A stretch of DNA of 64,000 nt from Arthrobacter sp. FW306-07-I (GTDB lineage Bacteria > Actinomycetota > Actinomycetes > Actinomycetales > Micrococcaceae). The stretch spans positions 2,232,001 to 2,296,000 of the forward strand of contig NZ_CP084550.1 in assembly GCF_021800405.1 (NCBI RefSeq), given 5' to 3'. The translations under genes and the position numbers were made by a program. Positions 48,443 through 55,525 of this stretch are shown here, piece by piece. How positions within the stretch are numbered: position 1 is the stretch's first letter; every line of letters starts with the position of its first letter. A model generated the notes under the pieces. That model was not told the origin of the DNA. It ran no database searches and saw only the letters and a program-made list of their open reading frames with translations.

Positions 48443-49588
48443 CTAGTGCATTGTGAAGCGCCTGGCGGCCCACCGGTTCACTGCCGGAATCGCCGCGGCC
48501 GCGCCAATGGCGGCGGTGCGGATTCCCAGGAGCTGTGACGGCAGCGGCCTGCCGAGCATCATGTTGACTTCCGCCTGTCGGCGGGCCAGGACCGCTGCCT
48601 TCTGCCGTCGCTTTTCGAACTCCCTGAGCTGGCTGCCAGTCGGCCTGCCTGCCAAGGCCGCGCAGACCACCGGCAGCAGCTCCCTGGCGTCCAGCCAGCC
48701 CAGGTTCATGCCCTGGCCTCCAATAGGGCTGATCTCGTGCGCCGCATCTCCCAGCAGCACCGCCCGTCCCGTGACGGTGCGGCGGGCAATGGTGGACCGC
48801 ACGCTGAAGGCGCTCAGCATGGAATTCGAGGACGTATCAGGAAGGAACCCGGTCCGCCGCCGCACCAACTGGGCCAGATCGTGCGGGCCTGCCGCCGGTC
48901 CGGCGGCCTGTCCCAGCCGGACCACCCAGCGGCGCACGCCGCCGGGCAACGGGAAGGATTCAACGATTCCCTCCGGTTCGAGGAACAGGACGGCTTTGTT
49001 CCCGTAGTGCGTGCCGTCGTCGAAATCCCCCATGAGGTAGTGGTCCGGGTACGTTCTGCCGGCCACCGGCACCTGCAACGCGCTGCGCAGCCGGGACCGG
49101 GCACCGTCAGCCACCACGAGCAACGCTGCCGTGGCGCTGCGGCGCGTGGCACCTGCGCCGGACTCGACCTCAACGGTTACCGTGCCGCCGTCGTCCCTGA
49201 CCCTGGTGACGTTGGCACCCCTGATGATCGCGCCGGAGTCCAGCTCAGTGACGCGCTCTTCGAGAAGCTGCTCCGTGCGGAACTGCGGGAGCGCCAGCAC
49301 AAAAGGGAAATCCTTGGATACGGCGCCGAAATCCATGGTCCCCACTGTCTTCCCGCCGCTGACCGCCAGGCCGGTCCTGATGGGGACGCCCTCCTGCACC
49401 ATGGGGGCAGCCACTCCAACCCCGGCAAGTGCCTTCAGTGCCGGGGGGTGGATGCCGATGGCGCGGGTATGCCGGTTCCGGGTCTGCCTCTGTTCAAAAA
49501 CCTTGACCGAGACACCTTCCTGCAGCAGCGCAGCAGCCATGTACAGGCCCACGGGACCTCCGCCTGCGATCAGAACCTCGGCATCCAT
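48443..49588 (-). CDS. FAD-dependent monooxygenase of the polyketide operon
   Basis: A 381-residue para-hydroxybenzoate-hydroxylase-type flavin monooxygenase. The FAD-binding motif is VLIAGGGPVGLYMAAALLQ at the N-terminus, and the second FAD motif is LGDAAHEISPIGGQGMN near residue 290. It starts 2 bases after the stop codon of the methyltransferase, so the two are coupled. By comparison with Streptomyces srsABC it would hydroxylate or oxidise the aromatic ring of a polyketide; this is inference. Confidence 0.9.
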   Translation of the reverse strand: MDAEVLIAGGGPVGLYMAAALLQEGVSVKVFEQRQTRNRHTRAIGIHPPALKALAGVGVAAPMVQEGVPIRTGLAVSGGKTVGTMDFGAVSKDFPFVLALPQFRTEQLLEERVTELDSGAIIRGANVTRVRDDGGTVTVEVESGAGATRRSATAALLVVADGARSRLRSALQVPVAGRTYPDHYLMGDFDDGTHYGNKAVLFLEPEGIVESFPLPGGVRRWVVRLGQAAGPAAGPHDLAQLVRRRTGFLPDTSSNSMLSAFSVRSTIARRTVTGRAVLLGDAAHEISPIGGQGMNLGWLDARELLPVVCAALAGRPTGSQLREFEKRRQKAAVLARRQAEVNMMLGRPLPSQLLGIRTAAIGAAAAIPAVNRWAARRFTMH

Positions 49589-49590
49589 GG

Positions 49591-50286
49591 TCAGCCCTTG
49601 CGGTAGGTCAGGACCTGGTGAAAGGCAAATGAGTGCTCCACGGACCAGCCCGGGGGAGCGGCGGCAGCCAACTCGGCGGGCCGGTAGCTCCGGCGGATGG
49701 AGGTAAGGCCGTCCTGGCGGATGAAGGAGCGGCGGAAGGGGAGTGCGGCAACGCTGAAGAGGGCAAAGGCGGTGGGGCTTCGAACGAGGTCGTTGTGCAG
49801 CGCTTTCCCTGACGCCAGGATTTCGGAGTCGGCCAACAGATGCCGCAGCTCCTCGGGTCCGAGGTGGTGCAGCATGTGGTTCGAAATCACGACGTCGAAT
49901 GCCGCACCTTCCCGGACGAGGTCTGCACTGTGGGCCTGACGGAACTCAACGCCCGGTATGGGCGGCCGGCGCCTGGCAAAGCTGGCCGCGCGGGGATCGG
50001 GATCGATGCCGGTGATCTGCATAGGCATGCCGTCCCGGGCTGCCCAGCGGGCCAGCATCACCGCGAGGTCGCCGCCGCCGCATCCGACATCGAGGACAGT
50101 CAGCGGCGCCTGGCCCTGCCGTTCCAGGCTGCGCAACTCCCTGGTGTAGAGCCGACGCCAGCCCGACAGAGCCCTGTTAATGATGCCGAACTGCCGGTAG
50201 GTGTTGTCCAGGAGCCGGGGGTCGCAGTCGGGGTGGTCCATTTGCTCGACATCGCCGATGGCGCGCCGGGTAAGCAGGATGTCCAT
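49591..50286 (-). CDS. Class I SAM methyltransferase of the polyketide operon
   Basis: A protein of about 231 residues with a Rossmann methyltransferase fold; motif I is LDVGCGGGDLAVMLARWA, and FDVVISNHMLHHL follows. It probably methylates an oxygen or carbon of the polyketide product. The ATG at 50286 lies 17 bases past the PKS stop; a TTG at 50310 would overlap it and cannot be excluded. In srs-type operons the methyltransferase is of a different, membrane type. Confidence 0.88.
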   Translation of the reverse strand: MDILLTRRAIGDVEQMDHPDCDPRLLDNTYRQFGIINRALSGWRRLYTRELRSLERQGQAPLTVLDVGCGGGDLAVMLARWAARDGMPMQITGIDPDPRAASFARRRPPIPGVEFRQAHSADLVREGAAFDVVISNHMLHHLGPEELRHLLADSEILASGKALHNDLVRSPTAFALFSVAALPFRRSFIRQDGLTSIRRSYRPAELAAAAPPGWSVEHSFAFHQVLTYRKG

Positions 50287-50302
50287 TGTTGTGGAAGCCC
50301 GC

Positions 50303-51556
50303 TCAGGCAAGCGTTGCCTCGGTGGCCCGGTTGTCCTTGAGCAGGACTTCTTCCCTGGCAGCGTCCTCCTGGGGAGTGTCTATTTGTGCGGGGTCCTCCT
50401 GGGGAGTGCTCGCCGACCGGCCAGCGGACTGCCGGAGCTTCGTGAACAAACCCGTTTCCACCGTCAGGCCCGGGCCAAAGGCCATGGAACAGATCCGTTC
50501 ATCCTCTTCCTTGAGGGGTTGTTCCAGGATGTGTTTGAGGACGAACAGCACGGTGGCGCTGCTCATGTTTCCGAAATTGCGCAGGGTCTCCCGGGCGGGA
50601 ACCAGTTGCGTGTCGCTGAGGCCGAGCCGGGACTGCACCTTATCCAGGATGCTGCGGCCGCCGGGATGGATGGCCCAGTGGGGGATGGCGGTGTAGGGGA
50701 GTGCCGCCAGCTCGGGTTCCCTGGCTAAAAGCGGTTCCAGTGCATCCACGATGTGGTCGTCAATGATGTGCGGCACGTAGTTGCCCAGGACCATCTCGAA
50801 GCCGTTGTCACCGATATTCCAGGCCATGGAGTCCTCACCGACCGGCGTCAGGACAGTTTCGAAATGGTCCAGTTTCAGCAGCGCGCTTTCCTCGGCGCCT
50901 GGCCGGGCCGTCACGACGGCGGCTGCCGCACCGTCAGCGAACAGCGCCGAGCCCATGATGGTGTCCGGGTTGTTGGAGGTCCGGACGTGCAGGGAGCACA
51001 GTTCAGCACAGACAACCAGCACGACGGCATTGGGATCCGCCTCGCAGAACAGCTTCGCCGCGCGGAGCGCGGGGAACGCCGCGTAACAGCCCATGAAACC
51101 CAGATGGTAGCGCTGGACAGCAGGACTGAGGCCGAGTTCGCGAACAACCTTATAGTCAGGGCCAGGGTTGAAAAAGCCGGTGCAGGAAACGGTCACCAGA
51201 TGAGTTATGTCAAGTAAATCGAGTTCAGGGGCGGCTTCCAGGGCAGCGCGGGAAGCCTCGACGAACAGCTTTGTGGCCTCGCGGGCGAAGATGTCGTTGC
51301 GGACCTTGGTGCTCGGGTTCAGCAGCAGGCCGGATTCCTGGTCATAGAACTGCGGGTTTTCGGAGCGGGCCGTGGTGGTCAGTTCCTCAACGGCGGTGAA
51401 CCTCGTATCAATGGCTGCACCATCAAAGCAGGTGTTGACCAGCCGCGAACCCAATCGGGACAAACCCGGCTGTGCCGCAAACACGTCGCGGGCTTCGGAC
51501 TGGATCAGCTTTGTCGTCGGAACTGCAGTTTCGAGTGAACGCACGTAGACCGTCAT
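50303..51556 (-). CDS. Type III polyketide synthase (chalcone/stilbene synthase fold)
   Basis: A 417-residue type III polyketide synthase. The triad is visible: Cys125 (VSCTGFFNPGPD), His297 (AIHPGGRSILD) and Asn330 (FGNMSSATVLFVL). It extends acyl-CoA starters with malonyl-CoA and cyclises the product, often to alkylresorcinols or alkylpyrones. The last 35 residues are an extension with a duplicated TPQED element. The upstream region holds candidate operator sequences. The methyltransferase and monooxygenase genes that follow are in the same operon. Confidence 0.93.
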   Translation of the reverse strand: MTVYVRSLETAVPTTKLIQSEARDVFAAQPGLSRLGSRLVNTCFDGAAIDTRFTAVEELTTTARSENPQFYDQESGLLLNPSTKVRNDIFAREATKLFVEASRAALEAAPELDLLDITHLVTVSCTGFFNPGPDYKVVRELGLSPAVQRYHLGFMGCYAAFPALRAAKLFCEADPNAVVLVVCAELCSLHVRTSNNPDTIMGSALFADGAAAAVVTARPGAEESALLKLDHFETVLTPVGEDSMAWNIGDNGFEMVLGNYVPHIIDDHIVDALEPLLAREPELAALPYTAIPHWAIHPGGRSILDKVQSRLGLSDTQLVPARETLRNFGNMSSATVLFVLKHILEQPLKEEDERICSMAFGPGLTVETGLFTKLRQSAGRSASTPQEDPAQIDTPQEDAAREEVLLKDNRATEATLA

Positions 51557-51693
51557 TGATTCATTCTTGACGGGCGCCTGGATAAAGACAATGCCTCTGC
51601 GTCCTGACCAGCGCTTTCATGCTCTTTCAGGCCGGTTTTGTGGCCAGGGATGCATGCTGGGCAACCCCGCCCGGAGTCCTTACCGAAACGCCG

Positions 51694-51712
51694 ATAATCT
51701 ACATTATGTCAA
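51694..51712 (-). promoter_or_regulatory. ATAAT-N4-ATTAT palindrome next to a TTGACA box
   Basis: ATAAT (51694-51698) and ATTAT (51703-51707) form an inverted repeat with a 4-base spacer, directly next to a TTGACA (51707-51712) that reads toward the PKS gene. No matching -10 box at 17 bases is clear. This could be the operator of a MarR- or TetR-type regulator. Confidence 0.35.
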
Positions 51713-51925
51713 GTAGTACTCTGCGTATTGCATCAGATGAATCAATCGCCCCGATCCCCCGGATCCGCACCAAGTCCTTTCACTTCCCTAAGATTCCGCG
51801 GAATTTGCGGTCTGAACAGCGTTAACGCGCCGCTGGCCAGGCGCTGCCCGACGGGCGCAATATCGATCCTTGAAGCGGTTGCGACAAGCGTCTGACCTGC
51901 GGTTTTGTGCTGATGATGCATTTAA

Positions 51926-51940
51926 TGAATCATTGATTCA
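51926..51940. promoter_or_regulatory. 15-base palindrome upstream of the recombinase cassette
   Basis: TGAATCATTGATTCA is a perfect 15-base palindrome about 40 bases before the recombinase start. It is a good candidate binding site for the HTH protein encoded in the cassette, or a recombinase binding site. Confidence 0.4.
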
Positions 51941-51979
51941 AGATTTGAGCACAAACTTCGAGGGAACTGTGGGGCGAGA

Positions 51980-53086
51980 ATGGCGGTGGACGCGTCCGGG
52001 CGTGTGCTGCAGCTGAGTGCTGTTCAGCTGCTGCATCCCGAGGAACAGACTCTTGAGGACATGCTGACCGGGTGGCGCAACCAGCAGCTTTCCAGGAACC
52101 TCCAGTTCGACACGATCGACAAGGGCATCGCGAGTGTCCGCCGGTTCGTGAACCATGTGAACGAGTTTCCGTGGAACTGGGCACCGGAACACGTCGAGGA
52201 GTATTTCGGTGACCTCCGCTCAATCCACCAGCTGAAGCACTCCACGGTCCGCGGCTACCAGTCCACGCTCCGCCGGTTCACGTCCTACGTGTCAAACCCC
52301 GACTACGGCTGGGACCAGGTCTGCGAACAGCGCTTCGGCACGCACCCGTCCCAGGTCTTCTTTGACTGGAACACCGCCTCCCACACACAGGAGTACGAAG
52401 GACGTCCCTCCAAGCGGCCCTTCACCAAGACGGAACTCCAGATGCTGTTCGATCACGCCGACGACCAGGTCGAACTCATCGCCGCCTCAGGCAAGAAAGG
52501 CTGGCAGGCCGCCTACCGGGACGCCGTCATGCTGAAAATCGCCTACTCGTACGGGCTCAGATTCAACGAGCTCCGGCACCTGCAATCCATCGACTTTGCG
52601 GCCAACCCGAAGGCGCGAAGGTTCGGCAAGGCAGGCGTCTGCAAGGTCCGGTTCGGCAAATCCCGCAAGGGCTCCCCGCACAAACCCCGCAGCGTCCTGA
52701 CGGTCTTCGACTGGACCGCCGGCGTTCTCGAGGACTGGCTCGCCAACGGACGGGGCATGCTCGACACCCTGGACCTGTTCCCCAGCGAACGCGGCGGCCT
52801 GATCTGCGAATCCACCCTGCTGCGCCGGCTCCGGCGCTACCTCAACGAGCTGGGCCTGCCAATGGATGGCCTGGACCTGCATTCGCTCCGGCGCTCCTAT
52901 GCAACGCACCTGTTGGAGGACGGATGGGATCCTAGATTCGTGCAACATCAGATGGGCCACGAACACGCCTCCACCACCGGGATTTACCAGTTCGTCAGCG
53001 ACGACTTCCGCAACACGACCCTTCGGGCAGCGCTGGACCGCACCATGGATGAAGTCCTGGGCGTGCAGATGCGAGGTGAATGGTGA
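51980..53086 (+). CDS. Tyrosine recombinase/integrase (cassette gene 1)
   Basis: A 368-residue site-specific recombinase. The N-terminal part (about 20-130) looks like a SAM-like core-binding domain. The catalytic residues are all present: Arg194 (SYGLRFNEL), a Lys in FGKSRKGS (about 227-230), His301 and Arg304 (HSLRRSYATH), His327 (MGHEHASTTG) and the nucleophile Tyr336 (GIYQF). GGGGCGAGA precedes the ATG. It overlaps the next gene by 7 bases. The neighbours show no cargo genes, so the three genes appear to form a minimal mobile unit. Confidence 0.92.
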   Translation: MAVDASGRVLQLSAVQLLHPEEQTLEDMLTGWRNQQLSRNLQFDTIDKGIASVRRFVNHVNEFPWNWAPEHVEEYFGDLRSIHQLKHSTVRGYQSTLRRFTSYVSNPDYGWDQVCEQRFGTHPSQVFFDWNTASHTQEYEGRPSKRPFTKTELQMLFDHADDQVELIAASGKKGWQAAYRDAVMLKIAYSYGLRFNELRHLQSIDFAANPKARRFGKAGVCKVRFGKSRKGSPHKPRSVLTVFDWTAGVLEDWLANGRGMLDTLDLFPSERGGLICESTLLRRLRRYLNELGLPMDGLDLHSLRRSYATHLLEDGWDPRFVQHQMGHEHASTTGIYQFVSDDFRNTTLRAALDRTMDEVLGVQMRGEW

Positions 53087-53418
53087 GACGCGACGTCGAA
53101 TACAAGTGGCGGCTCTCGGAGCTCATGGCAGCACGGGGCCTGCACAACACCACCGACCTCATCCCCCTTCTGGCCGAGCGCGGCATCACCTTGTCCCGCC
53201 CACAGGTCTACCGTCTCGTCAACCAGAAACCCGAACGCGTCGCACTGCAGGTCATCGCCGCGATCTGCGACATCTTCTCCTGCGGACCCGAGGACCTCAT
53301 CACCGTCACAGCCGCCGACGTCCGCGCCCGCAAAACCGGAACCAGCGCCCCCAACGTCGTCGACCTGAACCGCACCGTCAGACCACGGCGCGCACGCATC
53401 ATCGACAATGATCACTGA
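53080..53418 (+). CDS. Cro/C1-type helix-turn-helix protein (cassette gene 2)
   Basis: A 112-residue DNA-binding protein. The HTH of the Cro/C1 (YozG-like) kind spans about residues 13-75: MAARGLHNTTDLIPLLAERG, then SRPQVYRLVN. A short basic tail follows (RTVRPRRARI). The start overlaps the recombinase stop (ATGGTGA), with ATG at 53080 or GTG at 53083 both possible; the end overlaps the third gene by 11 bases. It may control the cassette or act as an excision factor. Confidence 0.88.
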   Translation: MVRRDVEYKWRLSELMAARGLHNTTDLIPLLAERGITLSRPQVYRLVNQKPERVALQVIAAICDIFSCGPEDLITVTAADVRARKTGTSAPNVVDLNRTVRPRRARIIDNDH

Positions 53419-54925
53419 CAAACCCGCAGGCCTCAGCCCCCGCAGCACCAGCCGCGGCCGGCCCCGCACCACGGGGACTGCCACCTGCGCACGCTGCGGC
53501 CGGGCCGCCGGTAAAACCCGCGCCACCTGGCCCGAAGGCCGAATCTGCGGCCCATGCTTCACCACCGCCACCCGCACCCACGGGACCTGCCCGGAGTGCG
53601 GCCAGCACAGACTTCTACCCGGGCCACCGGACATCAGCGGAGGGCCACGCTGCGCGCCCTGCGCCGGCATCCTCCACGACTTCCACTGCACCCGTTGCAA
53701 TACGGAGGGCGAGTTCTACCGGCGCGGCATATGCGCCCGCTGCGCCCTCCGGGAGGACCTCAACGAACTACTGCTCATGCACCCCGCCGACCCGGACACC
53801 GCCGGCAAAATCGTCCATGCGCTTTGCAAAGCGGACCGGCCCGAAAGCATCATCACGTGGAAACGCTCCCCCAAAGTCCAAGCACTCCTGGCCTCTCTGT
53901 CATGCGGGGAAACTCCCTTGACGCACGAAGGACTCGATGCCGCGGCCAAGTCAGCGAACCGCGAAGCCAATCACCTGCGCGCCCTGTTCATTCATCATGG
54001 ACTCCTCCCCTACCAAGACCCGTATCTGGCCCGGTTCGAAACCTGGATTGACGACAAGCTCCGCCACTTGCCCGAGGAGGTCGCCAAACCCGTCGCACAG
54101 TTTGCCACCTGGCATCACCTCCGGCGCATCCGGTCCATCACAACACCGGAGAAGAGCGCCCAAGCCCCGGTCCACTCGGCCAAGCAAGAGATCACCGAAA
54201 CCGTCAAGTTTCTGGACTGGCTCTGGGAAACCCACCAGCGGACAGCGGCGAACTGCACCCAACAAGACATCGAAACCTGGCTCGCAACCGGTTCCACGAC
54301 CAGAAAAGCCATCCGCACCTTCATCGTCTTCATCAAGAACACCGGCACAAACCACAGGGTGGACATGGGCCACTACACAGCCAAAACCCGCCCCGCGATC
54401 ACCCAGGACCAGCGCGTGGCCTGGCTCCGGGAACTGCTTACCGGCACCAGCGAGTCCCTGCCCTACCGAGTCGCCGGCATCCTGCTGCTTCTCTACGCCC
54501 AGCCGCTCGTTCGGGTCGCCAAACTCCGGACCGACGCTATCGAAACCAATGAAAGCACCGGCAACATGCGGATCACCTTCGGCCCGCACCCAGTGCCCAT
54601 TCCCGAACCCTTCGCCGACTTGCTTCGAGAGCACCTTAAAGGCCGTCCGAATCTCAGAACAGGATCAGACGCACAAAGCCCCTGGCTCTTCCCGGGGACC
54701 CGGGCCGGACAACCACTTCACCCAAACGGCATCATGGATAGGCTCCGAAGCCTGGGCATCGACCTGCGCGGCGCACGAAACACGGCCCTCGACGAACACC
54801 TTTTAGTCTCACCACCGCCACTGGTCGCCGACGCACTCGGATACAGCCACCAAGTAGCCTTCCTCCACGCCGACGCGGCAGGCGACGCCTGGTCCCGCTA
54901 CGTCAACCTAAGAACCGGGCCTTGA
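53408..54925 (+). CDS. Zinc-ribbon tyrosine-recombinase-like protein (cassette gene 3)
   Basis: A 505-residue protein. The first 115 residues have six CxxC pairs (27/30, 47/50, 61/64, 82/85, 94/97, 109/112), which would make three zinc ribbons. The rest looks like a phage-type recombinase: core-binding-like region at about 150-320, Arg369 (LVRVAKL), Arg457 (LRGARNTAL) and Tyr498 (WSRYV). The His of HxxR is missing (Arg454 in its place) and the second His motif reads LGYSHQVA. It may be a divergent recombinase or a DNA-binding partner of gene 1. The ATG overlaps the stop of the HTH gene, so all three are coupled. Confidence 0.8.
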   Translation: MITDKPAGLSPRSTSRGRPRTTGTATCARCGRAAGKTRATWPEGRICGPCFTTATRTHGTCPECGQHRLLPGPPDISGGPRCAPCAGILHDFHCTRCNTEGEFYRRGICARCALREDLNELLLMHPADPDTAGKIVHALCKADRPESIITWKRSPKVQALLASLSCGETPLTHEGLDAAAKSANREANHLRALFIHHGLLPYQDPYLARFETWIDDKLRHLPEEVAKPVAQFATWHHLRRIRSITTPEKSAQAPVHSAKQEITETVKFLDWLWETHQRTAANCTQQDIETWLATGSTTRKAIRTFIVFIKNTGTNHRVDMGHYTAKTRPAITQDQRVAWLRELLTGTSESLPYRVAGILLLLYAQPLVRVAKLRTDAIETNESTGNMRITFGPHPVPIPEPFADLLREHLKGRPNLRTGSDAQSPWLFPGTRAGQPLHPNGIMDRLRSLGIDLRGARNTALDEHLLVSPPPLVADALGYSHQVAFLHADAAGDAWSRYVNLRTGP

Positions 54926-54963
54926 AGCGTCCTTGCGAACACTTCGACAGTGACATCTAACTC

Positions 54964-55227
54964 TCACTCATCAAGGTCTTCTCGCCTGTCTGAGCGCAGA
55001 TCCTCAATCGGTCTCTTTCCAATGAGCTCCTGACGATAACCCTCAACTTCAGCAGACTTCTTTCGAGACCATCGCCAACCAAAGTAGGACCCAAGAAGCC
55101 CAGCTAACGCGAAACCCACCGCCGTCACAGCCGGGGAGCCCGTTGCAACCTGGATCCAGACGGCAATGCCAACAACCAACATCGCTGTGACTACCAAAAC
55201 GAAGGCTTTCTGCTTTCGACCCGTCAT
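54964..55227 (-). CDS. Small two-helix membrane protein
   Basis: An 87-residue protein with two hydrophobic helices (KAFVLVVTAMLVVGIAVWI and VTAVGFALAGLLGSYFGWRW) and a charged tail (SRKKSAEVEGYRQELIG). GGGGAGGAG lies 5 bases before the ATG. No family is recognised. It converges with the recombinase cassette. Confidence 0.6.
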   Translation of the reverse strand: MTGRKQKAFVLVVTAMLVVGIAVWIQVATGSPAVTAVGFALAGLLGSYFGWRWSRKKSAEVEGYRQELIGKRPIEDLRSDRREDLDE

Positions 55228-55525
55228 CGCACTCCTCCCCGAGCAGTTGTGCAAATGCTGGCACGAACTAGACCAACAGGGAAAGCCTTGGCAGCAAAGG
55301 TAGACATTCCGTGTTCTAGCGGAGGACTTGCACGACGCAGGCTTTCGTGGCGAATACGCTCACATTTGATCCGCAGGGATGCCAGTAACGTTGATGAAGC
55401 AGTTCGATGGCTTGGCCTCTGGCTGAGACATGCATCCCCCTCCTGCCACGGCTATCAAGCCTGTTCTGCTGGATAGCTGGTGGGCTGGTGGGACTGGCCG
55501 GCCAACGGGCCGGTTTTGATACTGG
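55228..55525. other. Intergenic stretch, no recognised gene
   Basis: About 300 bases between two small membrane-protein genes. The only feature seen is the hairpin with T-run at 55498-55517, on the strand opposite to both neighbours. Confidence 0.45.
55498..55517 (+). terminator. Hairpin with T-run, no obvious upstream gene
   Basis: CCGGCC-AACG-GGCCGG is followed by TTTT on the plus strand. The nearest plus-strand gene ends 570 bases earlier (recombinase cassette), so this could end an unannotated small RNA or read-through from the cassette. Confidence 0.4.

Follow-up and report, generated by a model that had tools for sequence, protein, structure and literature searches.

A recombinase trio of Arthrobacter sp. 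FW306-07-I as the core of a probable site-specific transposon at the edge of dif

The three genes

The DNA analyzed (the window) is a 64,000-nucleotide stretch of the chromosome of Arthrobacter sp. FW306-07-I. It contains three ORFs on the forward strand in overlapping frames, and the stop/start overlaps of 7 and 11 bases given by a sequence-only reading of the window were confirmed. The three proteins may accordingly be made in fixed proportion, as that reading supposed. The assignment of the first two genes was upheld as well. Gene 1 (51980–53086, 368 aa) encodes a catalytically complete tyrosine recombinase of the canonical integrase type (Phage_integrase, 5.8e-22), and gene 2 (53080–53418, 112 aa) encodes a Cro/C1-type HTH protein (HTH_26, 6.2e-18). 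The gene 1 residues R194, K227, H301, R304, H327 and Y336 were found in 21 of 21 aligned sequences, including two Xer-like proteins from the same genome. The best PDB match of the gene 1 profile was XerD; since the profile contained these two Xer-like proteins, gene 1 is called here only Xer-like. The NF040693 model for the GmtY recombinase of the Gamma-mobile-trio gave 14.6 bits, below its cut-off of 340.

Gene 3 (53408–54925, forward strand, 505 aa) had been read as a zinc-ribbon integrase-like protein, which agrees with the present results: it contains three probable zinc ribbons and a degenerate tyrosine-recombinase domain. The Pfam search gave only weak matches below the cut-off, the NCBIfam search gave none at E up to 1, and residues 317–451 matched the PHROGs integrase family phrog_1 (3.5e-6). 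Twelve cysteine residues form six CxxC pairs, and across 30 aligned sequences, that of the window included, every one of these cysteines is either invariant or conserved to at least 90%. This pattern allows us to assume that the pairs probably bind zinc. Residues 222–504 have the tyrosine recombinase fold; because the gene 3 profile found no PDB sequence at E up to 0.1, structure was needed to recognize it.

When the profiles of genes 3 and 1 were compared, the match was weak (33% probability, E 4.4e-4) and spanned only the first arginine and the lysine positions, the later catalytic positions having been lined up by eye. The catalytic residues, complete in gene 1, are mostly gone from gene 3. 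R457 and Y498 were present in 30 of 30 aligned sequences, Y498 being off register. Judging by the alignment, gene 3 is probably catalytically inactive, and the conservation of R457 and Y498 means that some activity may persist. A PADLOC match of gene 3 to JAB (E 0.05) was weak and was set aside. Relatives of gene 3 amounted to 1,350 proteins among 7,993 scored candidates, and all 120 matches listed lacked a Pfam domain; this family is now partly explained.

The element, its copies and the dif site

The trio lies within an element of 3,672 bp (51716–55387, forward strand), defined as the exact stretch common to the window and copy 2. The genome consists of C1 (4,459,978 bp) and the 102-kb replicon C2 (101,757 bp), and it contains three copies of the element, two on chromosome C1 and one on C2. 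Gene 1 accordingly had three matches with identical scores. Exact extension showed that the three copies have no mismatch over 3,672 bp and become identical at position 51716. Their loci are unrelated and the flanks are unlike one another, apart from a dif-like site. A 3,673-bp contig of Pseudarthrobacter sp. C4D7 has both ends coinciding with those of the window element, and the listed identity of its gene 3 is 100%. The left end (CTCTGCGTATTGCATCAGATGAATCA..., 51719–51760) and the right end (...TCCGCAGGGATGCCAGTA, 55340–55387), both given on the forward strand, are kept in close relatives.

Besides the trio, the 3.67 kb contain one candidate cargo ORF on the reverse strand (54964–55254, 96 aa, two hydrophobic stretches) with weak gene evidence, and no relaxase or transfer genes of their own. 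Of the loci compared, the identical copies and the Pseudarthrobacter contig were the only ones to contain this ORF. The DNA past gene 3 measures 462 bp in the window copy and 90–1,458 bp in the 15 elements measured. The earlier statement that there is no cargo was thus nearly right, the shortest relative having 90 bp. A scan of promoters and terminators gave nothing above shuffled sequences.

Plasmid pA of Paenarthrobacter ureafaciens AT carries two tandem copies of a related element with a period of 4,714, and "plasmid pD" of the same strain is a 4,712-bp circular record equal to one unit closed on itself. This record starts exactly at the joint and has two bases fewer than the tandem joint, so that it may be an assembly artefact, such as a collapsed repeat. 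Several copies reside on plasmids typed as conjugative, and degraded copies occur among relatives in the genus. The two replicons carry three identical, sharply bounded copies; these, the empty sites described below, and the tandem pair with the circular record support the view, taken from sequence comparison, that the trio is the core of a self-contained mobile unit, as had been proposed. It is not bound to one place beside the same neighbors: neighbors and replicons differ, and the dif-like site recurs. The dif site, the true ends, the other copies and the catalytic loss of the third protein go beyond the sequence-only reading.

The site dif is widespread on circular bacterial chromosomes and is used by bacteria to separate joined chromosomes. 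Its spread is also described in PMC5357621, and the E. coli layout given there was used to set the 28-bp extent and the arms. In the window, the chromosomal dif (51687–51714, forward strand) is the target site and is left intact; it comprises an XerC-type arm (51687–51697), a 6-bp spacer (51698–51703) and an XerD-type arm (51704–51714), and its 22-bp core is 51691–51712. The element adjoins this XerD arm on its outer side. The sequence CCGATAATNNANNTTATGTNAA has three exact occurrences in the genome, each at the left end of an element copy, and three more dif-like sites with 1–2 mismatches were found elsewhere in the genome. Such sites were seen at C1:4130789 (reverse strand, 1 mismatch) and at C2:13525 (2 mismatches); the former is adjoined on its XerC side by a distant trio with a gene 3 that is 30% identical. 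To the left of the window dif (48443–51556), a reverse-strand set resembles, by reading only, a type III polyketide synthase, a methyltransferase and an FAD monooxygenase.

The window dif lies at 2,283,691 of 4,459,978, i.e., at 51.2% of C1, opposite the gene at the start of C1, which a sequence motif identifies as dnaA. Seven matches to a DnaA-box consensus were counted in the first 20 kb of C1 and 0–1 in 19 other sampled stretches. The GC skew of 20 sampled 20-kb stretches had no clean switch, and the terminus was therefore placed using dnaA, the DnaA boxes and the dif sequence.

The exact 22-bp core occurs once each in 31 of 121 genomes of the genus, the present one included, and is absent from 90. 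A window-type left end abuts dif at 7 of these 31 sites. A homologue of gene 1 or gene 3 was found within 6 kb on the XerD side at 9 of 31 sites (a fragment at L199) and on the XerC side at one; at L186, L205 and L206 the XerD side extends for fewer than 100 nt, which is why the 9 do not include two of the 7. A scan of the 500 nt upstream revealed a dif-like site with at most 2 mismatches at 24 of 32 near loci, on chromosomes and plasmids, several of which share a genome and hence are not independent. The same scan was positive at 6 of 18 distant loci, and shuffled dif patterns gave 0 of 500. L174 was dropped from the scan as it lacks upstream sequence, and L158 was left out as its gene 1 was not found. 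Since no dif-like site was present within 500 nt upstream at 12 of the 18 distant relatives, only some branches target dif. Among the eight near loci with more than 2 mismatches, the number is 4 at L028 and L043 and 5 at L026, while the second copy of L020, L037 and L039 lie behind the right end of another element (L020) or a lookalike; both cases at L046 have no explanation.

Junctions, empty sites and related elements

In the junction table, 15 window-type copies could be read at both ends and adjoin a dif-like site at the left (in L043 with 4 mismatches). In the window, the left 6-bp spacer (51713–51718, forward strand) consists of the target GTA and the element GTA, consistent with copies being identical from 51716, and the right spacer (55385–55390, forward strand) consists of the element GTA and the target ACG. 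At L103 and L106, dif is followed by GTAACG with no window-type end. As a rule, the filled left junction reads TCAA-[target triplet + GTA/ATA/GTG]-(C/G)TCTGCG and the right one GCCA-[GTA or CTA + target triplet]-flank. The right triplet was GTA or CTA in all 15 of these copies and the left one varied (GTA, CTA, GCT, CCA, CCT); the two differed in 11 of 15, so no target duplication is indicated. For example, the spacers CTAGTA and GTAAAG of L042 reconstruct the empty site CTAAAG. Every window-type copy of the table that adjoins a dif-like site has the same orientation to it.

Empty sites were found on both replicon types. In six of eight related plasmids, fetched by the right flank, the XerD side of the dif-like site is free of a window-type element; the site reads TCAA-CTAAAG-TTG in L178, L179 and L180 and ACAA-GTAGAG/GTAAAC/GTAAAG-TTG in L183, L184 and L185; L181 and L182 had no dif-like site within 4 mismatches. 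The L179 site is empty on the XerD side only, its XerC side being occupied by a fragment annotated as an integrase. Five collinear chromosomes (L192, L193, L202, L208, L214) have matching flanks and no element, and the right flank resumes 47–201 bp past dif. L210 also lacks the trio and was rejected as a clean empty site, since its right flank resumes only 510 bp past dif.

This comparison of collinear genomes with and without the trio, which had been proposed earlier, placed the exchange mid-spacer. As read from filled and empty junctions, it occurs in the middle of a 6-bp spacer that lies outside dif beside the XerD arm, and dif is kept whole. With the exchange at this point, the first three spacer bases of the target remain at dif and the right end of the element brings its own three. 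The spacer is flanked by the XerD arm and, on plasmids, by a partial inverted repeat of it. A simple 6-bp heteroduplex would not predict the 3+3 exchange.

Some further features were observed at the plasmid sites. The dif-like sites of L010, L020, L022, L023, L042, L178 and L180 are followed by repeats of the GTTGC/TTGTCAAC type and by a motif resembling CATACTG.TCAC, which are perhaps accessory sequences for plasmid dimer resolution. In L179 (positions 1–1077, plasmid of Arthrobacter sp. FW306-05-C), the integrase fragment is cut by the record start and lies at the distance from the dif-like site that is seen in the XerC branch. In L178 (positions 1–1975, pJ349-116), annotated TnsA-like and Mu-type transposase genes adjoin the dif-like site, possibly as another type of dif-targeting element.

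In L009/L016 (one element, in the present genome), L024, L033, L083, L166 and L171, the XerC arm instead has as its direct neighbor a related trio or gene 1 of such a trio. In L024 and L033, a single dif-like site has an element on both sides. Stacked arrays arise where a window-type copy follows the right end of another element, or a lookalike, as in L020, L035, L037, L039, L069 and L070. Directly behind copy 2 (L009:12560), a left end was seen that has diverged and belongs to another member of this family, perhaps a remnant. In P. defluvii pB (L024:2664–6420), a window-type gene 1 is split by a Tn554-like-looking set, namely an integrase, a 728-aa integrase and a DUF6262 protein.

The order gene 1, gene 2, gene 3 was kept at 19 of 20 places fetched from the class-wide matches; among the 20, gene 1 is split over two frames in L172 and was not found in L158. 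Relatives of gene 3, fragments included, occur in 63 of 121 genomes of the genus and in at least 71 of 345 genomes of the class (32 of 126 genera), the latter being a lower bound because four candidates per genome were scored. They were also found in 248 plasmid records, mainly from Streptomyces and Rhodococcus, and a protein search of phage records gave none. Genomes G021, G039 and G078 contain two or three copies each of other branches with identical scores, which suggests that these branches are mobile as well.

Proposed mechanism and comparison with known systems

Identical copies with exact ends exist, they are placed beside a dif-like site, relatives have empty sites, and one tandem pair occurs. 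Based on these sequences, the element is very probably a minimal site-specific transposon of Micrococcaceae, with relatives across Actinomycetes, and inserts along the outer border of dif or dif-like sites of chromosomes and plasmids. In such a transposon, the Xer-like gene 1 would read the XerD-arm sequence as one half-site and catalyze excision to a circle and then integration. Gene 3 may bind the target or the ends and help to choose the site, its zinc ribbons may bind DNA or a partner, and gene 2 could be a regulator or a directionality factor. As dif stays intact, landing at a vital site would be harmless, and the unbroken dif would be a safe landing site. In Micrococcaceae, the left end of the element can be used to locate dif and dif-like plasmid sites, and the gene 1 integrase may serve as a tool for integration at the edge of dif.

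The excerpts of PMC10214605 distinguish five groups of tyrosine-recombinase transposons, namely ICE/IME, SE, GInt, RIT and Tn554, and, judged by these published descriptions, the trio misses a defining feature of each. We lean slightly towards a sixth group, with sister branches on opposite dif arms and the Xer site sequence exploited without the Xer reaction. It would combine a single active recombinase with an HTH protein and a dead zinc-ribbon recombinase selecting the target, and would be common in Actinomycetota; one dif could bear elements on both sides, or a stack of them, and remain functional.

A kinship with the strand-biased SE and GInt, with the circle copied out and gene 3 as the counterpart of Tfp/GinC, is conceivable and rather unlikely. 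According to the same excerpts of PMC10214605, these elements have four core genes, namely two catalytic recombinases, Tfp/GinC and Srap/GinD, and thus combine active recombinases with a protein that has the recombinase fold but not the catalytic residues. The present element resembles them in such an operon (gene 3, with R457 kept), in its 6-bp spacers, which recall the 6-bp footprints left by SEs, and in site preference, and several copies per genome suit a copying mode. However, it has three genes, one catalytic recombinase instead of two, zinc ribbons and a length of about 3.3–4.7 kb, and belongs to Actinomycetota, whereas SE and GInt are described from Gamma- and Betaproteobacteria with medians of 15.7 and 34.9 kb. 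In SE/GInt, the 6-bp footprint is copied and the left one of the donor becomes the new right end; here the right triplet, GTA or CTA in 15 of 15, is not obviously the left triplet of any donor. The transposon reading makes the role of a recombinase-fold protein without catalytic residues testable, and the same question stands for SE and GInt.

It is improbable that the trio is a module for dimer resolution that supplements dif with a recombinase of its own and is kept for a benefit in plasmid or chromosome segregation: the window's branch lies mostly beside dif-like sites, and several copies are on plasmids typed as conjugative, but empty sites are common, degraded and tandem copies occur, and genomes have identical copies. 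Still less credit is due to insertion by host XerC/XerD with a different job for the trio, as in IMEX (CTXphi, TLCphi, GGI, LME-1), which integrate at dif via host Xer and a dif mimic (PMC5357621, PMC9765430). The location at dif fits this route, which would need a dif mimic and exchange in the dif core; the element instead has its own recombinase, no dif-like sequence was found at the joint of the 4,712-bp unit or, in a scan of the present genome at up to 2 mismatches, inside the element, and the exchange is outside the core. The DNA-inversion machine suggested earlier, or a phase-variation cassette, is hardly credible: tyrosine recombinases can invert DNA, but the window-type copies seen have a fixed orientation to dif, and identical copies lie at unrelated loci.

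The site-specific transposon was also compared with the remaining groups. The earlier contrast with RIT and Tn554 holds for the HTH middle gene and the zinc-ribbon third gene, and is extended here by the loss of most catalytic residues in the third protein. Tn554-like elements are likewise recombinase transposons with a preferred target and are known on actinobacterial plasmids (PMC3414803, in excerpt); compared by description, they differ in that both TnpA and TnpB are recombinases with the motif, accompanied by TnpC (PMC10214605, in excerpt), whereas here an HTH gene lies in the middle, the third protein is degenerate and one recombinase keeps all catalytic residues. Their Famint36/41 pairs on actinobacterial plasmids, as far as the excerpts of PMC3414803 describe them, might be distant relatives of the long Streptomyces forms. 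RIT elements, in the same source, also have three overlapping genes in around 3,500 bp, but all three families have a possible catalytic motif, which here is limited to one protein, gene 2 being an HTH gene. The lack of relaxase and transfer genes distinguishes the trio element from ICE/IME.

No description of the trio or of its dif-edge target was found in the literature covered, outside of which lie most subscription journals and preprints. The niche itself is not new, since the IS1202 family is known to insert near dif: ISAjo2 inserts 5 bp from dif/pdif on chromosomes and plasmids, with a one-gene DDE transposase, a 5-bp target duplication and a position on the XerC side (PMC10132070, in excerpt). 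That machinery is unrelated to a tyrosine recombinase trio, for which no duplication was seen (triplets differing in 11 of 15). The published dif exploiters that were found either rely on host Xer or act by DDE chemistry, and an element that lands beside dif with its own recombinase and spares the site is unlike them.
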